DNA of 64,000 nucleotides from Beijerinckiaceae bacterium. Lineage in GTDB: Bacteria > Pseudomonadota > Alphaproteobacteria > Rhizobiales > Beijerinckiaceae. Shown in pieces: positions 138-50,055 of the stretch. Each line of letters opens with the position of its first letter. The stretch's first letter is position 1. The DNA is taken from assembly GCA_030684835.1 (NCBI GenBank), contig JAUXWZ010000064.1, positions 1 through 64,000 of the forward strand. Direction: 5' to 3'. The notes under the pieces were generated by a model. That model ran no database searches, was not told where the DNA came from, and saw only the letters and a program-made list of their open reading frames with translations. The translations under genes and the position numbers were made by a program.

Positions 138-611
138 GCCACCCAAACTTAAGCGTTTTTCCCGCAGCTCGATGCGGGCATGCTCGGGTGCGCGGTTCTC
201 GATTTCCTAATCATCGGCGCGCGCCTTGGCGATTCCCTGCTTGATCAGAAGCAGGACGACGTCGAGGCCCGCGACGCGGCACACCGAAGATCCTCGGCGC
301 CTCGCCTGACCAACGACGGATCGTAGGCGGTGTCGATGCCAAGCGCGCCTCCGTCCACGACCTGACCGTCAGCCGCTCTAACGTGTGTGCTGGACAACAG
401 GAAGACAGCGATCCACACTTGCGCCCAACGGAATTGAAACACGTCATGCCTTGACCCGGCCTTTTCAACGAATTCGCATTGCGCGGATAGCCATCATAGC
501 CTCCACTTACATAAGCTGACGCGAATTTTAGTGTTGGCCCGAACACTGCATGCAAATCGGGAGGCGCTGGCAGCTGGAATTGTTGACGCCAGCATGAAGG
601 GAAAAATTCAA

Positions 612-1670
612 ATGAATATATTTTCAGGCTCCCGCGCGCGAATTTTATCCCTGGCCATAGTTAGCGCAATCGCGCAATGTTCTTGGGCAACAGCGCAGGA
701 CAATGATGCGCTAGCTGCTTTCTATCGCAACAAAAATATTGATATTTACATCGGCTATTCCGCCGGCGGCAGCTACGACGCCTACGCAAGAATTGTCGGA
801 CGCTTTATCGGCAATCACATTCCCGGTCAGCCGCGCGTCGTGATGCGGCAAATGGCGGGCGGCGGAAGCCGCATTGCGGCAAACCATGTATTCAACATCG
901 CCCCGCGCGACGGCACCGTTATGGCGACGGCCGATCAGGCGATGCCTGTGCAACAGGCGGTAGGCGATCCCGACATCAAGTTTGACACCAGCCGGCTCAA
1001 CTGGATTGGCAATCCAACGGCCGACAACAATCTTCTCGTCGTCTGGCACACCTCGGGCGTACACACGCTGGACGACATCAAGAAGAAGGAAGTCGTCATC
1101 GCATCGACTGGCATCAACACCTCGTCCCAATATGCGCAGGCGCTCAACTCGATAGCGGGCGCCCGCTTCAAGATCGTCCTTGGATATCCCGGCGCCGCCG
1201 AGATGGGTCTGGCGATGGAGCGGGGCGAAGTCATGTCTCATACAGCGCCTTGGGCGGCGTGGAAGGCGAACCGGCCAGACTGGGTGCGCGACAAGAAAAT
1301 CAACATCATCTTCCAGGTGGGCCTGACGCGCTCGCGCGAGCTTCCCGATGTGCCGCTGTTCATGGATTACGCGCAGAACGATCTCGACCGCGCCGCGCTG
1401 CGCTTGTTTTCTGCCGCTGCGACGATTGGCCGGCCGCTTTTTTCGACGCCCGATACGCCGCCCGAGAGAGTTGACGCGCTGCGGCGCGCTTTCGATTTGA
1501 CAATGCAGGACCGTAGTTTCCTTGATGCCGCGGCCAAGACGGGCCTCGATATCGAGCCCGTATCCGGCCTTGAGCTGCAGCGCATCGTCAATGACATCGT
1601 GAACACGCCCAAAGAGGTGACCGCCAGGCTTGCGGCGATCATCGCGCTCCCCGATCAGAAGAAGAATTAG
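612..1670 (+). CDS. Bug/TctC-like tripartite tricarboxylate transporter substrate-binding protein (divergent)
   Basis: Signal peptide then FYRNKNIDIYIGYSAGGSYDAYARIVGRFIGNHIPGQP...NIAPRDGTV; start uncertain (ORF opens at 531, ATGs at 594 and 612). Confidence 0.85.
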   Translation: MNIFSGSRARILSLAIVSAIAQCSWATAQDNDALAAFYRNKNIDIYIGYSAGGSYDAYARIVGRFIGNHIPGQPRVVMRQMAGGGSRIAANHVFNIAPRDGTVMATADQAMPVQQAVGDPDIKFDTSRLNWIGNPTADNNLLVVWHTSGVHTLDDIKKKEVVIASTGINTSSQYAQALNSIAGARFKIVLGYPGAAEMGLAMERGEVMSHTAPWAAWKANRPDWVRDKKINIIFQVGLTRSRELPDVPLFMDYAQNDLDRAALRLFSAAATIGRPLFSTPDTPPERVDALRRAFDLTMQDRSFLDAAAKTGLDIEPVSGLELQRIVNDIVNTPKEVTARLAAIIALPDQKKN

Positions 1671-1798
1671 CTGCACGCGTTAAGGCGGCGCCTGAAGTTC
1701 CGCGCGCCATAAATTCAGGTCGACGTCTGCGCGCGCCTCGCGGTAGTCTCCGTCCCAATGAGAATTCCCGCCAACGGGATAATCAAGGGGAGGTCGCC

Positions 1799-2830
1799 AT
1801 GAAGATCGCACACATGCGCATCGTGTCCGTGCTTGCTTTGGCTGTTGTAGCGCTCGCGCCAATGAAGACGTCCGCCGCCGATTACTATGCCGGCAAGCAG
1901 ATCACCTTCATCATCGGCACCTCGCCCGGCGGCGGGTTCGACATCTACGGGCGCACCGTTGCGCGGCATTTGCCCAAGCACCTTCCCGGCGCGCCGGTGA
2001 TCATCGTGCAGAACATGAACGGCGCCAGTACCATGCGCGCCGCAGGCTTCATTTATAACATAGCGCCAAAGGATGGCACGGTGATTGGCGCGATTTCGCC
2101 TGGCGCCGTGGTCGGCCCGCTGCTCGATGGCAAGGCGGACGCCCTTTACGATCCGACAAAGTTTCATTACCTCGCCACGGCCAACAATTCCGCGCGCGTG
2201 TGCGCGACGTTCGGCACATCGAAAACCAAGACGTTCGCCGATGCGCTGAAGCAGGAAACGATCATCGGTTCAGTGGCCGAAGGAGGCTCGACGCGCGACT
2301 ACGCCTACCTGCACAGGAACACGTCGAAGGCGAAATTCCGCATCATCGCCGGCTACAAGGGCACACCCGATGTGCTGCTCGCGATGGAGCGCGGCGAGGT
2401 GGATGGCATCTGCGGGCTCGACTGGTCAAGTTTGCGCGCGCAGAAGGGCGATTACATTCGTGACGGCAAGCTCAACATCCTCGTGCAGACAGGGCTTGAG
2501 CCCAACGAGGAGCTTACAAAAATGGGCGTGCCGCAAATCTGGCGGTTCTTCGAGAACGACGAAGATAAGGCGGTTGCAGAACTTGTCATCGCGCAGCAAT
2601 TGTTCGGGCGGCCCTACATCGCGCCGCCCGGCACGACGCCCGAGGCCGTGGCGCTCCTGCGTGCAGGTTTCATTGCGGCGTTGAGCGATCCGGCTCTCAT
2701 CGCTGACGCGGCGCGCTCGCAGATTGATTTGGCGCCCGCTGGCGGTGAACGCGTGCAGGAGGGTGTGCGCAAGATCTATGCTGCGCCCACTAGCATTGTG
2801 GAGCGCGCGCGTGAGGCTATCCGTAGATAG
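1799..2830 (+). CDS. Bug/TctC-like substrate-binding protein (divergent)
   Basis: Signal peptide; YYAGKQITFIIGTSPGGGFDIYGRTVARHLPKHLPGAP...NIAPKDGTVIG; GGGGAGG RBS upstream of the ATG. Confidence 0.88.
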   Translation: MKIAHMRIVSVLALAVVALAPMKTSAADYYAGKQITFIIGTSPGGGFDIYGRTVARHLPKHLPGAPVIIVQNMNGASTMRAAGFIYNIAPKDGTVIGAISPGAVVGPLLDGKADALYDPTKFHYLATANNSARVCATFGTSKTKTFADALKQETIIGSVAEGGSTRDYAYLHRNTSKAKFRIIAGYKGTPDVLLAMERGEVDGICGLDWSSLRAQKGDYIRDGKLNILVQTGLEPNEELTKMGVPQIWRFFENDEDKAVAELVIAQQLFGRPYIAPPGTTPEAVALLRAGFIAALSDPALIADAARSQIDLAPAGGERVQEGVRKIYAAPTSIVERAREAIRR

Positions 2831-2957: not shown

Positions 2958-3572
2958 TCATTCCTCGTGTTCTGGCGCGAAGCCGCTGTAGCGGCCTTCC
3001 GCCTCGTGATAGCTGCGCGCCAGATCGCTCACGACCGCGCCAATGCGTTCCACGACAGCTCGTTCCGCCTGCCCAACAGCCTTGCGCCGCTCCAGCCTCA
3101 CCAACGAGCCCATGATCTGTAATTGATTGCCGAGGCGATGGTTGATTTCGCGCAGCAACCGGACGTTTTCCGCCGTCCGCGCCGCCACTTCACGCTCAAG
3201 CTCCAGTGCGCGCTCGCGGGGCGACGCAATGCGCAACGCGCGAGGCACAATCGCGATCAAAGCCATGGCGGTGACGACAGAAAGCGCGGCGCATATGGTC
3301 TTGACCGTAGCTTCGAGCACCGTGTGCTCGAAGGTGGTGTACGGCATCTGCAGCGCATGGACGAGATGGGTCAGGCCGCAGGCCACGATGAACGCTGCAA
3401 ATAACGCAAGCATCCACGGGTAGGGGATGTCGAGGAGCCGCTTTCGCAGGACCATGATAAGGCCAATTGGAATTGCGAAATAGGCCAGCGCAATGCTCAG
3501 GTCTCCCGCAAGCACAAGCTTGCCGAGCGGTGACATCGCTCCGCACAAAGCCAAAAAGTCGAAGGGATTCAT
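2958..3572 (-). CDS. Membrane sensor with ETR1-like ethylene-binding domain and HisKA_2-like DHp segment, no HATPase domain
   Basis: GDLSIALAYFAIPIGLI...AAFIVACGLTHLVHAL matches the plant ETR1 transmembrane sensor pattern (D, Y, IP, C-x3-H); EINHRLGNQLQIMGSLVRLE resembles the HisKA_2 H-box; ORF ends shortly after. Confidence 0.85.
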   Translation of the reverse strand: MNPFDFLALCGAMSPLGKLVLAGDLSIALAYFAIPIGLIMVLRKRLLDIPYPWMLALFAAFIVACGLTHLVHALQMPYTTFEHTVLEATVKTICAALSVVTAMALIAIVPRALRIASPRERALELEREVAARTAENVRLLREINHRLGNQLQIMGSLVRLERRKAVGQAERAVVERIGAVVSDLARSYHEAEGRYSGFAPEHEE

Positions 3573-3806: not shown

Positions 3807-5174
3807 TTATCGCGCAATCCGCAACATGGTCATCTGCTGGGCGATCGCATTGAAGGCGGAGGACAATTGCATCGCGTTTGTCGCGTCGAAATACTTGTCG
3901 GCAGACGTGGCGCACGCACGAAGCAAATTCTTGATCGAGTTTGATGTAACATCAAACGCGATGGTGAAGACCTGAACACCGTCCGCTTTGATGTTGGTGC
4001 ACAATTCAGCGGTCAGGGCGTTAGCTGTCGCAGTGTCGTAACCGTCGTGCTTGGGATAGGTCGGAGACATGGTGTTCTCTCCGTCTGTCATGAGAACGAC
4101 ATATCGCTGCGTCTTGCGGTTAGCATTCGTCGGCTCGCTGAAAGGCTCGATCGGCGACAACGTCGCCCAACCCCACATGAGGCCGGATGGAATATACGTG
4201 TTGCCGACCGCCGCGAGACCATTGATCGCGTTCAGCACTGTCGATCGGCTTGAGGAGAGGGTCGTCAGTGCGGGCGGGCAGCTCACGTTCATCACGCCGG
4301 GAACAGGATTGGTAATATAATTCTGATCGCGCACGTTCAGCGGATGATTGCGCGATCCCACACAACCTTTCCATGTCAGCGTCGTCGTCTGGTTTTGGCA
4401 AGTTTGATAATAAGGGCCATAATCGTGATCGCAGACTTCCCATGTGCCGGACCTTGGCGTAGCGACGCCATCATTCCAGTCTGTCCATGAATGAAACTGC
4501 ATGCGGCAATTGTAGGTGCGCGTTATGTCGCGGGTCTGCCAGCAGGCCTGCTGTGTCGTGGATGAATCGGGCGGAACTGAAAGCCACGGCTGGTTCCTGT
4601 TCGCGATCCCTACATTCACGTATTGCGCGAACGGCACGACCGCCATTTTAATCTGGTTGCCTTGCGTCAGCTTGTCGTAAAGCGTGTTCACCATGCCGGA
4701 TGCCGCCGTCTTAAGGCTGGTGAGTTTGCTGCCGAGCATGGATGCGGTGACGTCAAGCACGAGCGCGATCTGGATGTCCTGATCGTTACCGAGAATGGCG
4801 TCGCTGACTGAGCGCACGGGGCGCGTGTCGACGCCCATCACCTTTGACAAAGTCATGGGTACGTTCGCCGTCACTTCGACGCGAAAGGCGCTATCTGCGC
4901 CCTTCTTGAAAGGCGCGGCGGAAAAAGCAGCGACAAGGCCTGATTGGGTGAAGTTTGCATCGAACACCTGACGCGCCAGCGCCACGGCCTCGTTGGGCGG
5001 CGCTTGCGCTGCGGCAAGAGCGGCTGCGTCAGCCGCGGAGCTGAGCGCCGCGCGCGTGTTTGTCATCCGCGAATAGTCGAGACCCGCCGATGCGGCGCCC
5101 AAAAGCGCAAAAGTGCTGAGCCCGAATATCGTGGCGATATTGCCGGATTCATTCGTCGTGAAACGTCTCAGCAT
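3807..5174 (-). CDS. TadG-like pilus-assembly/VWA domain protein, paralog 3
   Basis: N-terminal TadE/G TM motif (NESGNIATIFGLSTFALLGAASAGLDYSRM), MIDAS-like VLDVTASM, VLMTDGENT; start MLRRFTTNE with RBS (ORF opens at 5231). Confidence 0.85.
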   Translation of the reverse strand: MLRRFTTNESGNIATIFGLSTFALLGAASAGLDYSRMTNTRAALSSAADAAALAAAQAPPNEAVALARQVFDANFTQSGLVAAFSAAPFKKGADSAFRVEVTANVPMTLSKVMGVDTRPVRSVSDAILGNDQDIQIALVLDVTASMLGSKLTSLKTAASGMVNTLYDKLTQGNQIKMAVVPFAQYVNVGIANRNQPWLSVPPDSSTTQQACWQTRDITRTYNCRMQFHSWTDWNDGVATPRSGTWEVCDHDYGPYYQTCQNQTTTLTWKGCVGSRNHPLNVRDQNYITNPVPGVMNVSCPPALTTLSSSRSTVLNAINGLAAVGNTYIPSGLMWGWATLSPIEPFSEPTNANRKTQRYVVLMTDGENTMSPTYPKHDGYDTATANALTAELCTNIKADGVQVFTIAFDVTSNSIKNLLRACATSADKYFDATNAMQLSSAFNAIAQQMTMLRIAR

Positions 5175-5237
5175 TTTCCTGCTCCTCAATGGTCTGCGGC
5201 GCCCGCGCAGGGCGCGGGGGGCTTTCGGCATTGCTGC

Positions 5238-6605
5238 TTATCGAGCGATCCGCAATTGCGAGAGTTGGCCCGTGATCCCTTTGAAGGCTTCACTGAGCTG
5301 CACCGCGCCAATCGCATCGAAGTATTTATCAGGCGAAGAGGCGCAGATACGAAGCTGATTCTTGATAATATTGTTATCAACGTCAAAAGAGATGGTGAAT
5401 ATCTGGACGCCGGAAGCCTTGATGTTCGTGCACAATTCGGCAGTCAGCGCATCCGCCACTGGCACATTGTAATCGTTGTGATAGGGGTAGGTCGGCGACA
5501 TCGAGTTCGCGCCATCCGTCATCAGGATCAGATATTTAGTTGTCTTGCGGCCCGGGGCGTCGGGCTCGACGAGCGGTTCGTTGCCCGATAAGGCCGCCCA
5601 ACCCCACGTCAGACCCGACGGAATATAGGTGTTGCCGACAGGCTGTAGTTCATTAATCGCGGTTAATACGGTGGACTGGCTTGGCGTCAGCGGCGTCAGC
5701 GGAACCGGACAATGGACGTTCATGACGCCGGGGGCGCGATTGATGAGGTAATTGTCGTCGCGCACGTTATTCGGATAATTGCGCGATCCTACGCAACCGT
5801 CCCATTTGAGGGTCGTCGTTTGATTAAAGCAATTCTGGTAATAGGGACCATAATCATGGTCGCAGACTTCCCACGTCCCCGTTTGCGTGCCGCAAACGCC
5901 GTCTACGCAATGTGTCCAGGAATGGAATTCCATGCGGCAATTATAGGTTCGGATGATATCGCGGGCCTGGTTGCAGACCTGCTGTGTGGTCGTTGAATCG
6001 TTGGGAACATCCATCCACGGCTGGTTGCGGTTGCCCATGCCGACGTTCACATATTGCGAAAAAGGCACCACGGCCATCTTCACCTGGTTTGCCTTCTTCA
6101 GTTTGTCGTAGAGCGCGTTCACCATGTCGGTGGCGGCGGCTTTCAGGCTGGTTATCCTTGTGCCAGCCATTGACTGCGTCACGTCGAGAACCAGCGCGAT
6201 CTGAACGTCGGAATCGTTGCCTGCAAGGACTTCACTGACCGCGCGCACGGGTGCGGATGTAAAGCCGATCGCCTGCGTCAGCGTCATCTTGACGTAGGCG
6301 ACCGCTTCGACGCGGACTGCGTCATCCTCGCCTCTCTTGATGACGGAGGTGGTGAACGCGGTGACCGGATCCCTCTCGCGGAAGTTGGCGTCGAACACCT
6401 GCCGCGAAATCGTTTGCATGTCATTGGCTGGCGCCTGAGCGCCAGCAAGTGCGGCCGCGTCGACGGCGGCCGATAACGCCGCACGCGAGTTGGTCATTCG
6501 CGAATAATCGAGGGTGGCTGAAACAGCGCCTATCATGGCCGTGGCGCCGAGCGCCACGCCGATGCCAAGACTGCCGCGTGAATCTCGGGCAAAAAACTTG
6601 AACAT
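5238..6605 (-). CDS. TadG-like pilus-assembly/VWA domain protein, paralog 2
   Basis: LDYSRMTNSRAALSAAVDAAALAGAQA, VLDVTQSMAGTRITSLKAAA, LILMTDGANSMSPTYPYHN; homologous along its length to the flanking ORFs. Confidence 0.88.
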   Translation of the reverse strand: MFKFFARDSRGSLGIGVALGATAMIGAVSATLDYSRMTNSRAALSAAVDAAALAGAQAPANDMQTISRQVFDANFRERDPVTAFTTSVIKRGEDDAVRVEAVAYVKMTLTQAIGFTSAPVRAVSEVLAGNDSDVQIALVLDVTQSMAGTRITSLKAAATDMVNALYDKLKKANQVKMAVVPFSQYVNVGMGNRNQPWMDVPNDSTTTQQVCNQARDIIRTYNCRMEFHSWTHCVDGVCGTQTGTWEVCDHDYGPYYQNCFNQTTTLKWDGCVGSRNYPNNVRDDNYLINRAPGVMNVHCPVPLTPLTPSQSTVLTAINELQPVGNTYIPSGLTWGWAALSGNEPLVEPDAPGRKTTKYLILMTDGANSMSPTYPYHNDYNVPVADALTAELCTNIKASGVQIFTISFDVDNNIIKNQLRICASSPDKYFDAIGAVQLSEAFKGITGQLSQLRIAR

Positions 6606-6715
6606 AGAAAAGCTCCGAAAGGCAATTTGGTTCTCGATAAAAAGTGCTCGAACCTAATATAGCGAAATCGGATTACTTTAAGCTAAATACCCTAGTTCAA
6701 GTTTGGTGGTATTTG

Positions 6716-7978
6716 CTATTTTGCGATGCGTAAATTTGTCATCTGACGCGCAATCGCGTCGAACGCGTCCGAGAGCTGGGTTGCACTCGTGGCGTCGAAA
6801 AAGCGATCGCTTGACGATGCGCAATTAGTGAGGAGCGTCTTTACGCTCGACGTTGTGACCTGGAACGCGATGCTGAAAACCTGGATGCCAGCAGCCTTCA
6901 CGTTAGCGCAGACTTCCGCCGTGAGCGTGTTGGCGGTCGCAACGCTGCCGCTGTTGTGGTAAGGATAGGAGGGTGAAATTGTGTTTTCGCCGTCGGTCAT
7001 CAAGACGAGATAGCGCTTTGTATCGCGCTGTGGGTCCGTCGGCTCGTTGAAAGGTTCGCCCGGAGACAGTGCTGCCCAGCCCCACATGGCGCCTGCCGGA
7101 ATATAAGTATTGCCGGTCGCCGCCAATCCGTTGATCCTGTCCAAGACATTTGTTTTAATTGCTGTGAGCGGCAACATGGCCGTCGTGCAATTGACGTTGT
7201 GGACCGCCGGAACGGCTTTGTTGCCGTAGTTTTCATCTCGCACATTCAGCGGATAATCGCGTGACCCGACGCACCCGCTCCATTTGAATTCGGTCACCAC
7301 ATCCTTGCACTGCCATATGGTTTGACTCTTTACCTTAACCCAGCCGCAGGACTCTGCAGTCGTCGTATAGTCGGCGGCGTTCGATACCCAACCGGCATTG
7401 CGGTTGTCCATTCCGATGTTGACGTATTCCGAGAACGGAACGACTGCGATTTTAACCTGGTTTGCGCGCTGAAGCCTGCTGAACAGTGTGTTCACCATGT
7501 TGGATGCGGATGCTTTCAGGTCCGTTAATCTTGTGCCGCTCATCGATCCCGTGACGTCCAGAACGAGTGCAATCTGCAGGTCGGCGTCGTTGCCCACGAC
7601 AACTTCGCTTGTCGCGCCCACGGGCGCCGACGAATATCCGATTGCCTGCGACAGCGTCATCTTCACGCTTGCTGTCGCCTTGACGCTCATGACCTCGTCG
7701 TTGCCGCGCTTAAACGAAATAGCCTCGAAAGACGTCAGGTCTGCAGAATCGCGGTAGTTCGCGTCGAAAACCTCACGGGCAATTGTTTGCCTGTTGGCTT
7801 CGGGAGCCTGGGCTGCGGCGAGCGCGGATGCGTCCGTCGCCGCGCTAAGCGACGAGCGCGCACCGTTCATTCGCGAATAGTCTAGACTTACTGAAATGGC
7901 GCCAACCATCGTCAGAGAGCCGAGCATCATTATTGCGCCGATGCTGCCCTTTTCGTCTTTGGCGAAGCGTCTCAACAT
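6716..7978 (-). CDS. TadG-like pilus-assembly/VWA domain protein, paralog 1
   Basis: LDYSRMNGARSSLSAATDASALAAAQA, VLDVTGSMSGTRL, LVLMTDGENTISPSYPYHN. Confidence 0.88.
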   Translation of the reverse strand: MLRRFAKDEKGSIGAIMMLGSLTMVGAISVSLDYSRMNGARSSLSAATDASALAAAQAPEANRQTIAREVFDANYRDSADLTSFEAISFKRGNDEVMSVKATASVKMTLSQAIGYSSAPVGATSEVVVGNDADLQIALVLDVTGSMSGTRLTDLKASASNMVNTLFSRLQRANQVKIAVVPFSEYVNIGMDNRNAGWVSNAADYTTTAESCGWVKVKSQTIWQCKDVVTEFKWSGCVGSRDYPLNVRDENYGNKAVPAVHNVNCTTAMLPLTAIKTNVLDRINGLAATGNTYIPAGAMWGWAALSPGEPFNEPTDPQRDTKRYLVLMTDGENTISPSYPYHNSGSVATANTLTAEVCANVKAAGIQVFSIAFQVTTSSVKTLLTNCASSSDRFFDATSATQLSDAFDAIARQMTNLRIAK

Positions 7979-46521: not shown

Positions 46522-49500
46522 ATGAGTTTTGGCGGCATCGCGATCTTCAGCGCGCTGGTTTACTTGTGCGGCCTTTTCGCCGTCGCCCGTTATGGCGATA
46601 CGTCAGGACGCAAGTTCATGCAGTCGCGGGCGCGGCCGGTGATCTACGCGCTGACGCTCGCCGTGTATTGCACGTCCTGGACGTTCTTCGGCTCCGTGGG
46701 CCTGGCCTCGGCCAATGGCCTCGATTTTCTACCCATCTACATTGGGCCTATTCTCGTCATCGGCCTCTTCTTTCCGCTGGTGCTGCGCATTGTGCGCATC
46801 GCGAAGGCGCAAAACATCACCTCTGTCGCGGACTTTGTAGCAGCCCGCTATGGCAAGTCTGAGCAGGTCGCGGCGCTGGTCGCCATCATCTGCGTTATCG
46901 GCGCGGTTCCCTATATCGCGCTACAGTTGAAGGCAATTTCGACCTCCGTTGCGACTGTTCTCGATTCGCTCAACGCAGGCCGCACGATTGCGCTCTCCTC
47001 CAGCGCCGGAGACCTCTCCTTCATCGTCGCGGTGATGCTGGCGGGCTTCGCGATGGCGTTTGGCACGCGCAACATTGACGCGACCGAGCACCAGGACGGG
47101 CTCGTCCTGTCCATCGCAATGGAATCGCTCGTCAAGCTGGTCGCGTTCATCGTGGTCGGCGTTTATGTGACGTGGTGGATGTTCGATGGGCTCGGCGATC
47201 TCACCGAGCGCGCCGCCGCAGACCCCTCCATCAGCAGCGTTCTGGCGCGTATGCCAAACGCCGCCACCTGGGTCGCCACGACCTTGCTGGCGGCGTGCTC
47301 CATCATCCTTCTGCCGCGCCAGTTTCATGTGACAGTCGTGGAGAACCGCGACGAGCGCGATGTGCGCACGGCTGCCTGGTTGTTCCCGCTATATCTGGTG
47401 GCGATCAATATCTTCGTCATTCCGTTGGCGATTGCGGGCCGACTCACCTTCCCCGAAGGCGCCATCGACCGCGATATGACCGTGCTTGCTCTGCCGCTTG
47501 AGTCCGGCGCCAACACGCTTGCGGTGTTTGTGATGATTGGCGGCCTCTCCGCCGCAACCGCGATGGTGATCGTTGCCTCCGTCGCCTTGTCGATCATGGC
47601 GTCGAATCATCTCGTCATGCCACTAATGCTGCGCATTTCCCGCATGCGGCGACGCATTGAGGCGGGCGATCCAGGGTCGCTTATTCTCATCATTCGCCGC
47701 GTGGCGATCGTCGTGCTGCTTGGCATGGGATACGCTTATTTTCACTATTCGGCGGAAGCCGCGCTGGCGGCCATTGGTCTGCTGTCCTTCGCTGCCATCG
47801 CTCAAATTGCGCCCGCATTTTTTGGCGGCCTCTTCTGGCGCAGGGCGACCGCGCGGGGCGCGATGGCGGGGCTCATCGTCGGCATCACGCTGTGGGCGTA
47901 CACCCTGCTTCTTCCTTCGCTCGCTCTCGATTCAGAAAGCGTTGCGGACATCGTCAAGTTTGGCCCGCTCGGGCTTCGCGCGCTCAAGCCCACCGCGCTT
48001 TTTGGCGTGGAATGGAGCCAGCTTGTTCATGGCGTGGCGTGGTCACTGTCCGCCAACATGCTCGCCTTTGTCGGCTTCTCGCTGGCGCGCCTTCCAACGC
48101 CTATCGAGCGATTGCAGGCCTCCGCATTCGTGGGCTCGGAGCCCGGCGTGATAGGTCAGGCCCTGCGCATGAGCGGCGCACGCATCACGGTCAGCGAACT
48201 GGAAGGCGCCGTCGGTCGCTATCTGGGATCGGACCACACGAGGCGATCCTTTCTGGATTTCATGCAGTCGCGCGGTTCGGTGCTCAAGCCCGCCGACGAG
48301 GCCGACGTTCATCTACTACGCTTTGCCGAACATCTGCTCGCTTCGGCGATTGGCGCGTCATCTTCGCGCCTGGTGCTTTCGCTTCTGCTGCGCCGTCGCA
48401 ATCTTTCGCGCGAAGCTGCTCTCAAACTGATCGACGACGCCTCGGCGACCCTGCAATACAACCGCGATTTGTTGCAGCACGCGCTTGATTTCGCCCGTCA
48501 GGGAATCACGGTGTTCGATCGAGACTTGCGGCTCATGGCCTGGAATCGTGAATTCCGGGATCTTTTCGATATGCCCAGCGGCTTCTTGCACGTCGGCCTG
48601 GAGCTTGAAGAATTGCTTCGCTACAACGCCGCGCGCGGAATCTACGGCCCTGGCGTCCCGGCGCAGCAAGTGATGAGTCGGCTGGAATTACTCGTCAATG
48701 AACCGGCGCCCACGCGTTTGCGACTTGAGAGCGGAATCGCAATCGAAATTCGCTCTGCGCGTATGCCTGACGGCGGACTCGTCACGACCTACACCGATGT
48801 AACGCAGACCGTGCGCGCCGAAGAAGCGCTGGAAGCCACAAACGAAACGCTGGAGCAGCGCGTCCGCGAGCGCACAGAAGAGCTTGTTCGGCTGAATGGC
48901 GAACTCGCCAAGGCCAAAGCTGTCGCGGAAGCCGCCGACCAATCGAAAACGCGTTTTCTGGCGGCCGCGAGCCACGACATCCTGCAACCGCTCAATGCTG
49001 CGCGCCTTTATGCGACAACCCTGCTTGAACGCGCACCCGAAGGCGGCGCCGATGCGGCTCAGCTGATCAACAATCTGGATCTCTCGCTGGAGGCGGTCGA
49101 GGAAATTCTCACGACCTTGCTTGAGATTTCGCGCCTTGACGCGGGCAAGATGAAGGCGGAGCCCAGCGTCTTCCCGCTGGGCGACATGCTCAGCCAGCTG
49201 CGTGTTGAGTTCGAGCCGCTCGCCAGAGAGAAAAACCTGCAACTCTATTTTGCGCGGTGCTCACGTAACGTGCGCTCCGACAAGCGCATGCTGCGCCGCC
49301 TGCTTCAGAACCTCATTTCAAACGCCATCAAATACACGCCAAAAGGGCGCGTTCTTGTTGGCGTGCGCCATCGCGGTGAAAGCCTTGTGGTTGAAGTGTG
49401 GGACACGGGCCTTGGCATTCCACAGGACAAACAGAAAATCGTCTTTCGTGAGTTCGAGCGCCTGGCGCCTGCGGCAAAAACAGCGCGCGGGCTTGGACTC

Positions 49501-50055
49501 GGGCTGTCCATCGTGGAGCGCCTCGGCCGCGTGCTGCGCCATCGCGTGAGCCTTTCGTCCGAGCCTGGGCGTGGAACGGTGTTTCGCGTCGAAGTGCCCC
49601 GCGCTGCAGCGGTCGCCTTCGACAGCGGCTTTGAGGATGCGCACGTGTCGGCCGCACAGCATCTGCCGCTGAGCGGCATGGTGGTGCTTGCAATTGACAA
49701 CGAAGAACGCATCCTGGATGGCATGCGCGGTCTTCTGTCAGGATGGGGATGCACCGTCATCACCGCCGATAGCATCGAGACGGCGGAGCGTGAGTTGTCC
49801 GCGCGCAACCTCGCGCCGCAGGCCATTGTTGCCGATTACCATCTTGACGATGGCGACGGCGTCGAGGCGATCATTCATCTGCGCCGCGTCTTCGGACTCG
49901 AAACGCCGTCGGTGCTTGTGACGGCTGATCGCACACCGGAAGTTCGCGCCTTGGCTGAAGCCAACGATATTCGTGTGCTCCACAAGCCGCTGCGGCCAGC
50001 CGCGCTTCGCTCGCTGCTCAGTCAGTGGCTGGTGACGCAGCGCGCCGCAGAATAA
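46522..50055 (+). CDS. Hybrid sensor histidine kinase with N-terminal SSS-like domain, PAS, HisKA, HATPase and C-terminal REC
   Basis: SSS-like TM region; PAS-like FDRDLRLMAWNREFRDLFDMP; FLAAASHDILQPLNAARLY H-box; NLISNAIKYTPKGRVLVGV; GLGLSIVERLGRVL; REC IVADYHLDDGDG. Confidence 0.93.
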   Translation: MSFGGIAIFSALVYLCGLFAVARYGDTSGRKFMQSRARPVIYALTLAVYCTSWTFFGSVGLASANGLDFLPIYIGPILVIGLFFPLVLRIVRIAKAQNITSVADFVAARYGKSEQVAALVAIICVIGAVPYIALQLKAISTSVATVLDSLNAGRTIALSSSAGDLSFIVAVMLAGFAMAFGTRNIDATEHQDGLVLSIAMESLVKLVAFIVVGVYVTWWMFDGLGDLTERAAADPSISSVLARMPNAATWVATTLLAACSIILLPRQFHVTVVENRDERDVRTAAWLFPLYLVAINIFVIPLAIAGRLTFPEGAIDRDMTVLALPLESGANTLAVFVMIGGLSAATAMVIVASVALSIMASNHLVMPLMLRISRMRRRIEAGDPGSLILIIRRVAIVVLLGMGYAYFHYSAEAALAAIGLLSFAAIAQIAPAFFGGLFWRRATARGAMAGLIVGITLWAYTLLLPSLALDSESVADIVKFGPLGLRALKPTALFGVEWSQLVHGVAWSLSANMLAFVGFSLARLPTPIERLQASAFVGSEPGVIGQALRMSGARITVSELEGAVGRYLGSDHTRRSFLDFMQSRGSVLKPADEADVHLLRFAEHLLASAIGASSSRLVLSLLLRRRNLSREAALKLIDDASATLQYNRDLLQHALDFARQGITVFDRDLRLMAWNREFRDLFDMPSGFLHVGLELEELLRYNAARGIYGPGVPAQQVMSRLELLVNEPAPTRLRLESGIAIEIRSARMPDGGLVTTYTDVTQTVRAEEALEATNETLEQRVRERTEELVRLNGELAKAKAVAEAADQSKTRFLAAASHDILQPLNAARLYATTLLERAPEGGADAAQLINNLDLSLEAVEEILTTLLEISRLDAGKMKAEPSVFPLGDMLSQLRVEFEPLAREKNLQLYFARCSRNVRSDKRMLRRLLQNLISNAIKYTPKGRVLVGVRHRGESLVVEVWDTGLGIPQDKQKIVFREFERLAPAAKTARGLGLGLSIVERLGRVLRHRVSLSSEPGRGTVFRVEVPRAAAVAFDSGFEDAHVSAAQHLPLSGMVVLAIDNEERILDGMRGLLSGWGCTVITADSIETAERELSARNLAPQAIVADYHLDDGDGVEAIIHLRRVFGLETPSVLVTADRTPEVRALAEANDIRVLHKPLRPAALRSLLSQWLVTQRAAE

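Follow-up and report, generated by a model that had tools for sequence, protein, structure and literature searches.

We analyzed a 64,000-nucleotide stretch of DNA from a Beijerinckiaceae bacterium (contig JAUXWZ010000064.1; hereafter, the window), near the start of which lies a small open reading frame on the minus strand that begins with ATG and encodes 204 amino acids (Table 1). The earlier note, made from the letters alone, had read its product as an ethylene-receptor-like sensor joined to a HisKA_2-type H-box, and the Pfam matches to ETR1_N and HisKA_2 bear out both halves. The H-box, EINHRLGNQLQIMGSLVRLE, spans residues 142–161; the protein ends 43 residues further on, where about 45 had been estimated, and its C-terminus is the end of the dimerization/phosphotransfer (DHp) region. 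A gap of 127 bp, first put at about 130, separates the gene from its convergent, TctC-like neighbor, which ends at 2830. Two adjacent TctC-type tripartite tricarboxylate receptor paralogues occupy 531–2830 (+), the second of them under the Pfam cut-off, and three tandem Tad-like pilus protein paralogues with a VWA domain occupy 3807–7978 (-), assigned by Pfam (3807–5231 and 5238–6605) and by sequence likeness (6716–7978).

Table 1. Features of the short ethylene-receptor-like gene in the window
Feature	Position	Strand	Basis
Complete gene: ethylene-binding domain and DHp, without ATPase (CA) domain	2958..3572	-	ORF; Pfam; orthologous short forms P0002 (L020) and P0003 (L066)
ETR1_N ethylene-binding domain (EBD), residues 17–115, three predicted membrane helices	3228..3524	-	Pfam PF25487, E = 3.7e-25, 88.5 bits (curated cut-off 27); model helices 15–45, 52–73, 80–114
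Asp24, equivalent of ETR1 D25	3501..3503	-	D in 40/42 EBD proteins; N in full-length cousins G526 and G767
Copper-site Cys65 (codon 3378–3380) and His69 (codon 3366–3368)	3366..3380	-	C and H in 42/42 EBD proteins compared
Lys91, equivalent of ETR1 K91	3300..3302	-	K in 39/42 EBD proteins; G in L020, M in G526 and G767
Helical linker from membrane to H-box, residues 118–141	3150..3221	-	Model helix from residue 118; pLDDT about 90 or more over residues 121–150
HisKA_2 H-box region, residues 142–177	3042..3149	-	Pfam PF07568, 25.9 bits, E = 1e-5 (cut-off 22.3); NF051872, E = 1.6e-5
Putative phosphoacceptor His145, HRxxN motif	3138–3140	-	H-box EINHRLGN
Probable second DHp helix, residues 172–195	2988..3059	-	In register with HisKA_2 kinases after the H-box

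Was an ATPase domain simply missed? Neither Pfam nor a six-frame genome search gave a HATPase_c match in the window protein or nearby in any frame. Across the whole host genome the six-frame search found HATPase_c in 38 places, 37 of them above the cut-off, and the sole match on the contig of the short-form gene lies 46 kb away, at 49279–49602; thus, no ATPase domain was overlooked beside the gene. Together with the 127-bp gap, the search excludes a missed or frameshifted domain, in agreement with the earlier claim that the protein has no kinase catalytic domain.

The Ethylene-Binding Residues Are Kept in the Short Forms

How complete is the predicted ethylene-binding site? We take the seven ethylene-binding residues of ETR1 to be D25, Y32, I35, P36, I62, C65, and H69. 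All seven have their equivalents in the window protein (D24, Y31, I34, P35, I62, C65, and H69), which also has K91; the set is complete as well in the two short relatives described below, and the seven positions are nearly invariant across the 42 EBD proteins that we aligned. The Asp, Tyr, Ile-Pro, Cys, and His said to be kept are therefore all present in the three proteins, with ETR1 spacing in the window protein (seven residues from D24 to Y31, four from C65 to H69), and the conservation of Cys, His, Asp, and Tyr, on which the first reading had been staked, extends over the 42-protein alignment. Work on ETR1 has established that ethylene binding requires seven residues, has described a role for C65/H69, and has yielded models in which K91 and D25, as predicted partners, are paired in receptor output (PMC11819568).

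Among the sensor residues compared, only Lys91 is gone from the L020 protein. Two full-length EBD-HisKA_2-ATPase kinases, at L067:3430-4473 (-) and L123:3159-4295 (-), have D25 replaced by N and K91 by M, a joint loss that fits the suggested D25–K91 contact. These full-length cousins, G526 (347 aa) and G767, are of the same family, have the same domain order, are the nearest kin of the window protein by EBD, and likewise lack an N-terminal HGxCLLW motif. They carry an ATPase domain together with N at D25 and M at K91, whereas the window protein, without an ATPase domain, keeps D24 and K91; thus, the sensor is better kept in the short forms.

The Truncated Form Recurs, and Its H-Box Helix Is Constrained

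Is the short form a lone truncation among full-length orthologs, as the earlier note allowed it might be? The closest orthologs are also short, and the form recurs in two further species: a congener, G625 (L066), encodes a 212-aa protein (P0003) that is 58% identical to the window protein, and a Xanthobacteraceae-labelled metagenome-assembled genome (L020) encodes a 213-aa protein (P0002) that is 43% identical over nearly the whole length. Both score well for ETR1_N (84.5 and 80.5 bits in the two relatives), and all three proteins end about 43–54 residues past the H-box without an ATPase domain. The near agreement of these end points among relatives of 58% and 43% identity is far more than chance.

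The three short forms share an invariant core, EINH(R/Q)xGNQLQIM, with the H-box reading HRLGN in the window protein and HQLGN in G625. Over the H-box helix, the window protein is identical to the congener at 20/27 positions and to the L020 protein at 21/27, versus 61/99 and 43/98 over the EBD; in the congener pair, dN is 0.16 for the H-box helix versus 0.32 for the EBD, with dS at 1.4 or saturated. The second helix has only 4/29 residues identical between the window protein and L020. The H-box helix is thus the most conserved region, above the EBD, and, judged by these substitutions, it is under selection though no kinase domain is attached to it. A helix under tighter constraint than the sensor, when the kinase domain is absent, speaks for a functional role in phosphotransfer or docking. 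The last residues of the L020 protein, QLPLDSAIQQA (L020:3586-3624 (+)), resemble the LPLDxAxxL at the start of the ATPase domain of HisKA_2 kinases and are possibly a trace of a lost ATPase domain, or chance.

How closely do these C-termini resemble a DHp? In a profile comparison, they matched HisKA_2 kinases over 65 columns (probability 97.9%, E = 5.7e-13), reaching into the second helix; by Pfam alone, P0003 scores 18.5 for HisKA_2, under the cut-off. Structure models, which rest on two-sequence alignments so shallow that we do not trust their helix packing, give one continuous helix (118–195) without a hairpin for the window protein (pLDDT 74.5, pTM 0.39) and two helices (116–160 and 166–189), like a DHp hairpin, for P0002. 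A search with the window model returned no PDB structure better than E = 1, and no solved chain matching the window protein by sequence was found.

Distribution and Origin of the Short Form

How widespread is the short form? It was present in three species among over a thousand genomes sampled: 2 of the 51 genomes of the window's genus and 1 of the 151 in a search around the L020 genome. Sampled genomes of the family (397), the order (398), and the class (385) yielded no further short form, and neither did 150 genomes related to that of L020. Other EBD proteins in the sampled groups are mostly full kinases of about 400–700 aa, often with PAS-like regions. Within the bacterial family of the window there is also an EBD-only family of about 175–180 aa (L068:2209-2733 (+), L069:2236-2760 (-), and L071:375-920 (+)), with an extra N-terminal helix, no DHp, and Ser at the P36 position; its members are possibly stand-alone ethylene or copper binders. 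In a different family of the class, a frame of 153 aa (L094:1387-1848 (+)) has the EBD as its sole domain, with the complete set of seven residues, followed by a short charged tail.

In a tree of the EBD, the three short forms and the full-length EBD-HisKA_2-ATPase proteins G526 and G767 form one clade (support 98/98), within which a single group of short forms is weakly supported (86/26). Long branches meet there, so the branching order of short forms and full-length cousins is uncertain. The simplest story, we infer, is that the short form arose by loss of the ATPase domain from an EBD-HisKA_2-ATPase kinase. The three genes each lie in different surroundings.

Likeness to PhyK and PhyT

The best NCBIfam match of all three short forms is PhyK (NF051872; E = 1.6e-5, 5.2e-6, and 5.1e-5), with the DHp aligned to PhyK residues 336–395. 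Because the match covers about 40–60 residues and falls far under the model's cut-off (23.7 of 750 bits), we treat the similarity as a lead, not as membership. In Caulobacter crescentus, PhyK with mutated ATP-binding boxes accepts phosphate from MrrA~P, phosphorylates PhyR, and complements in vivo, and an H371A mutant fails where the ATP-box mutants succeed (PMC5964349). In Sphingomonas melonis, the HRxxN protein PhyT, whose ATPase domain is degenerate, relays phosphate from SdrG~P to PhyR (PMC5898713). Since PhyK and PhyT relay without ATP use, a HisKA_2 DHp without an ATPase domain could be a working relay. PhyK/LovK and PhyT have, like the window protein, a HisKA_2/HRxxN DHp, which in them acts as a phosphotransferase without ATP use. 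They differ in retaining an ATPase domain, which is conserved in PhyK and degenerate in PhyT and of which the window protein has none, and in having sensor domains other than the EBD.

Each of the three genomes with a short form encodes NepR; PhyR is encoded by the host and by G625, and a PhyR-like ORF occurs in the L020 genome (G1160). Both proteins are widespread in Alphaproteobacteria, so their presence is weak evidence. The host nepR/phyR genes are on contig C124 and the short-form gene is on C165, away from the phyR locus. Control of the short-form gene by EcfG was considered and rejected, as the upstream regions of the three loci held no EcfG-type promoter.

A Proposed Ethylene-Gated Phosphotransferase

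What might such a protein do? The explanation we favor, with about even confidence, is that the window protein is a membrane-bound, PhyK/PhyT-like histidine phosphotransferase gated by ethylene; both its ethylene binding and its phosphotransfer are predicted from sequence. Of the three options first raised for the protein—phosphotransfer protein, split kinase, decayed receptor—the first fits best. The DHp would work as a dimer in which His145 takes up a phosphoryl group, donated either by a phosphorylated receiver protein or by another kinase, and hands it to a second receiver, or drains phosphate. Binding of ethylene at a Cu(I) site formed by C65 and H69 would move the membrane helices, a movement that the helical linker (residues 118–141) would carry to the DHp, altering its activity. 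The foremost candidate partner is PhyR, of the general stress response, since no described DHp comes closer than PhyK's and since PhyK and PhyT pass phosphate on to PhyR with no use of ATP. This candidate pairing is the weakest step of the explanation. Both in the window and in L020 the short-form gene is an orphan, and no conserved response regulator adjoins it. The fuller claim, that ethylene, a gas and plant hormone, directly controls a phosphorelay node through a one-piece phosphotransferase with no kinase activity of its own, possibly feeding the PhyR stress response, is tentative and somewhat unlikely to hold as a whole.

Could the protein instead be half of a split kinase, with a full HWE/HisKA_2 kinase phosphorylating His145 in trans and the ethylene input joining that kinase's output? 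Phosphoacceptor and ATPase parts do sit on separate proteins in CheA3/CheA4 (PMC3591291) and Hik36/Hik43 (PMC7656254); those systems are CheA-type with known partners, and no such partner was found here. The host genome has many HWE/HisKA_2 kinases, and in G625 a PAS-HWE kinase (L066:3563-4621 (-)) lies 100 bp downstream of the short-form gene on the same strand, a candidate partner there only. Against this, no ATPase-only gene was found in the host genome—a draft of 208 contigs that is 96% complete—where the 37 HATPase_c matches above the cut-off all lie in open frames of at least 334 aa. The G625 neighbor belongs to a widespread paralogue family; its two close homologues in the host (65% and 64% identity) are on other contigs, the L020 genome has no close homologue of it (32%), and the L020 gene has no kinase nearer than about 9 kb. 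The idea of a conserved neighbor as partner was rejected, as the kinase beside the G625 gene is absent beside the other two short-form genes. The split-kinase option of the earlier note is thus kept as a possible, if unlikely, reading, now lacking both an ATPase-only gene and a conserved adjacent kinase.

It is more doubtful that the DHp serves as a negative regulator, binding a response regulator or draining its phosphate, with ethylene releasing or strengthening the hold. PhyT retains unphosphorylated PhyR at the membrane, an effect that depends on H341 (PMC5898713), and LovK/LovR drain phosphate from MrrA (PMC5964349), so both behaviors have precedents; by sequence, however, sink or sequestration and relay are indistinguishable, and relay would account for the conserved H-box His and Asn just as well as binding would. 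Just as improbable, and compatible with any output mechanism, is a membrane domain whose ligand is not ethylene but copper or some other small molecule. The sensor is recognized here from its residues, the L020 protein is without the conserved Lys, and the full-length cousins are without the Asp; yet none of the three short forms lacks any of the seven residues that ETR1 requires, and AzoEtr1, with the same seven, binds ethylene (PMC11819568). A remnant left by decay or mis-assembly of a full-length ethylene-receptor kinase, for which the rare and patchy occurrence (2/51 and 1/151 genomes), the full-length nearest kin in the EBD tree, and the 208-contig draft assembly would speak, is very unlikely, given that genes in three species and three separate assemblies end nearly alike with no room for an ATPase remnant past the stop, that the H-box is the most constrained region, and that all binding residues are kept.

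Relation to Known Systems and Meaning

How does the proposed ethylene-gated phosphotransferase compare with systems already described? AzoEtr1 of Azospirillum brasilense and SynEtr1 of Synechocystis share the N-terminal three-helix EBD and the same seven residues, but they are full sensor kinases (AzoEtr1, 525 aa, is EBD-PAS-histidine kinase), whereas the window protein is without PAS and ATPase domains. The dimeric phosphotransferases Spo0B and ChpT use a kinase-derived DHp solely for phosphotransfer, as proposed here; both are soluble, have no sensor domain, and keep a degenerate ATPase-like domain. The window protein combines a known sensor domain with a known phosphotransfer domain, and our literature search found no description of such a combination in a bacterial ethylene-binding protein, with the DHp present and the ATPase domain absent. 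A review notes that output domains range "from simple to complex" (PMC7700396), so simple forms may already have been noticed.

To date, the bacterial ethylene receptors that have been studied, SynEtr1 and AzoEtr1, are sensor kinases. If our preferred explanation is true, an ethylene receptor would signal without a kinase domain, intact or degenerate, which would extend the idea, known from PhyK and PhyT, that HisKA_2 proteins can dispense with the ATPase domain. At about 200 residues, the protein would offer a simple construct for testing how the EBD moves an output helix. With a conserved receptor made of a sensor and a phosphotransfer helix, the relay step would be shown to be a possible point of entry for ethylene into a signaling network.
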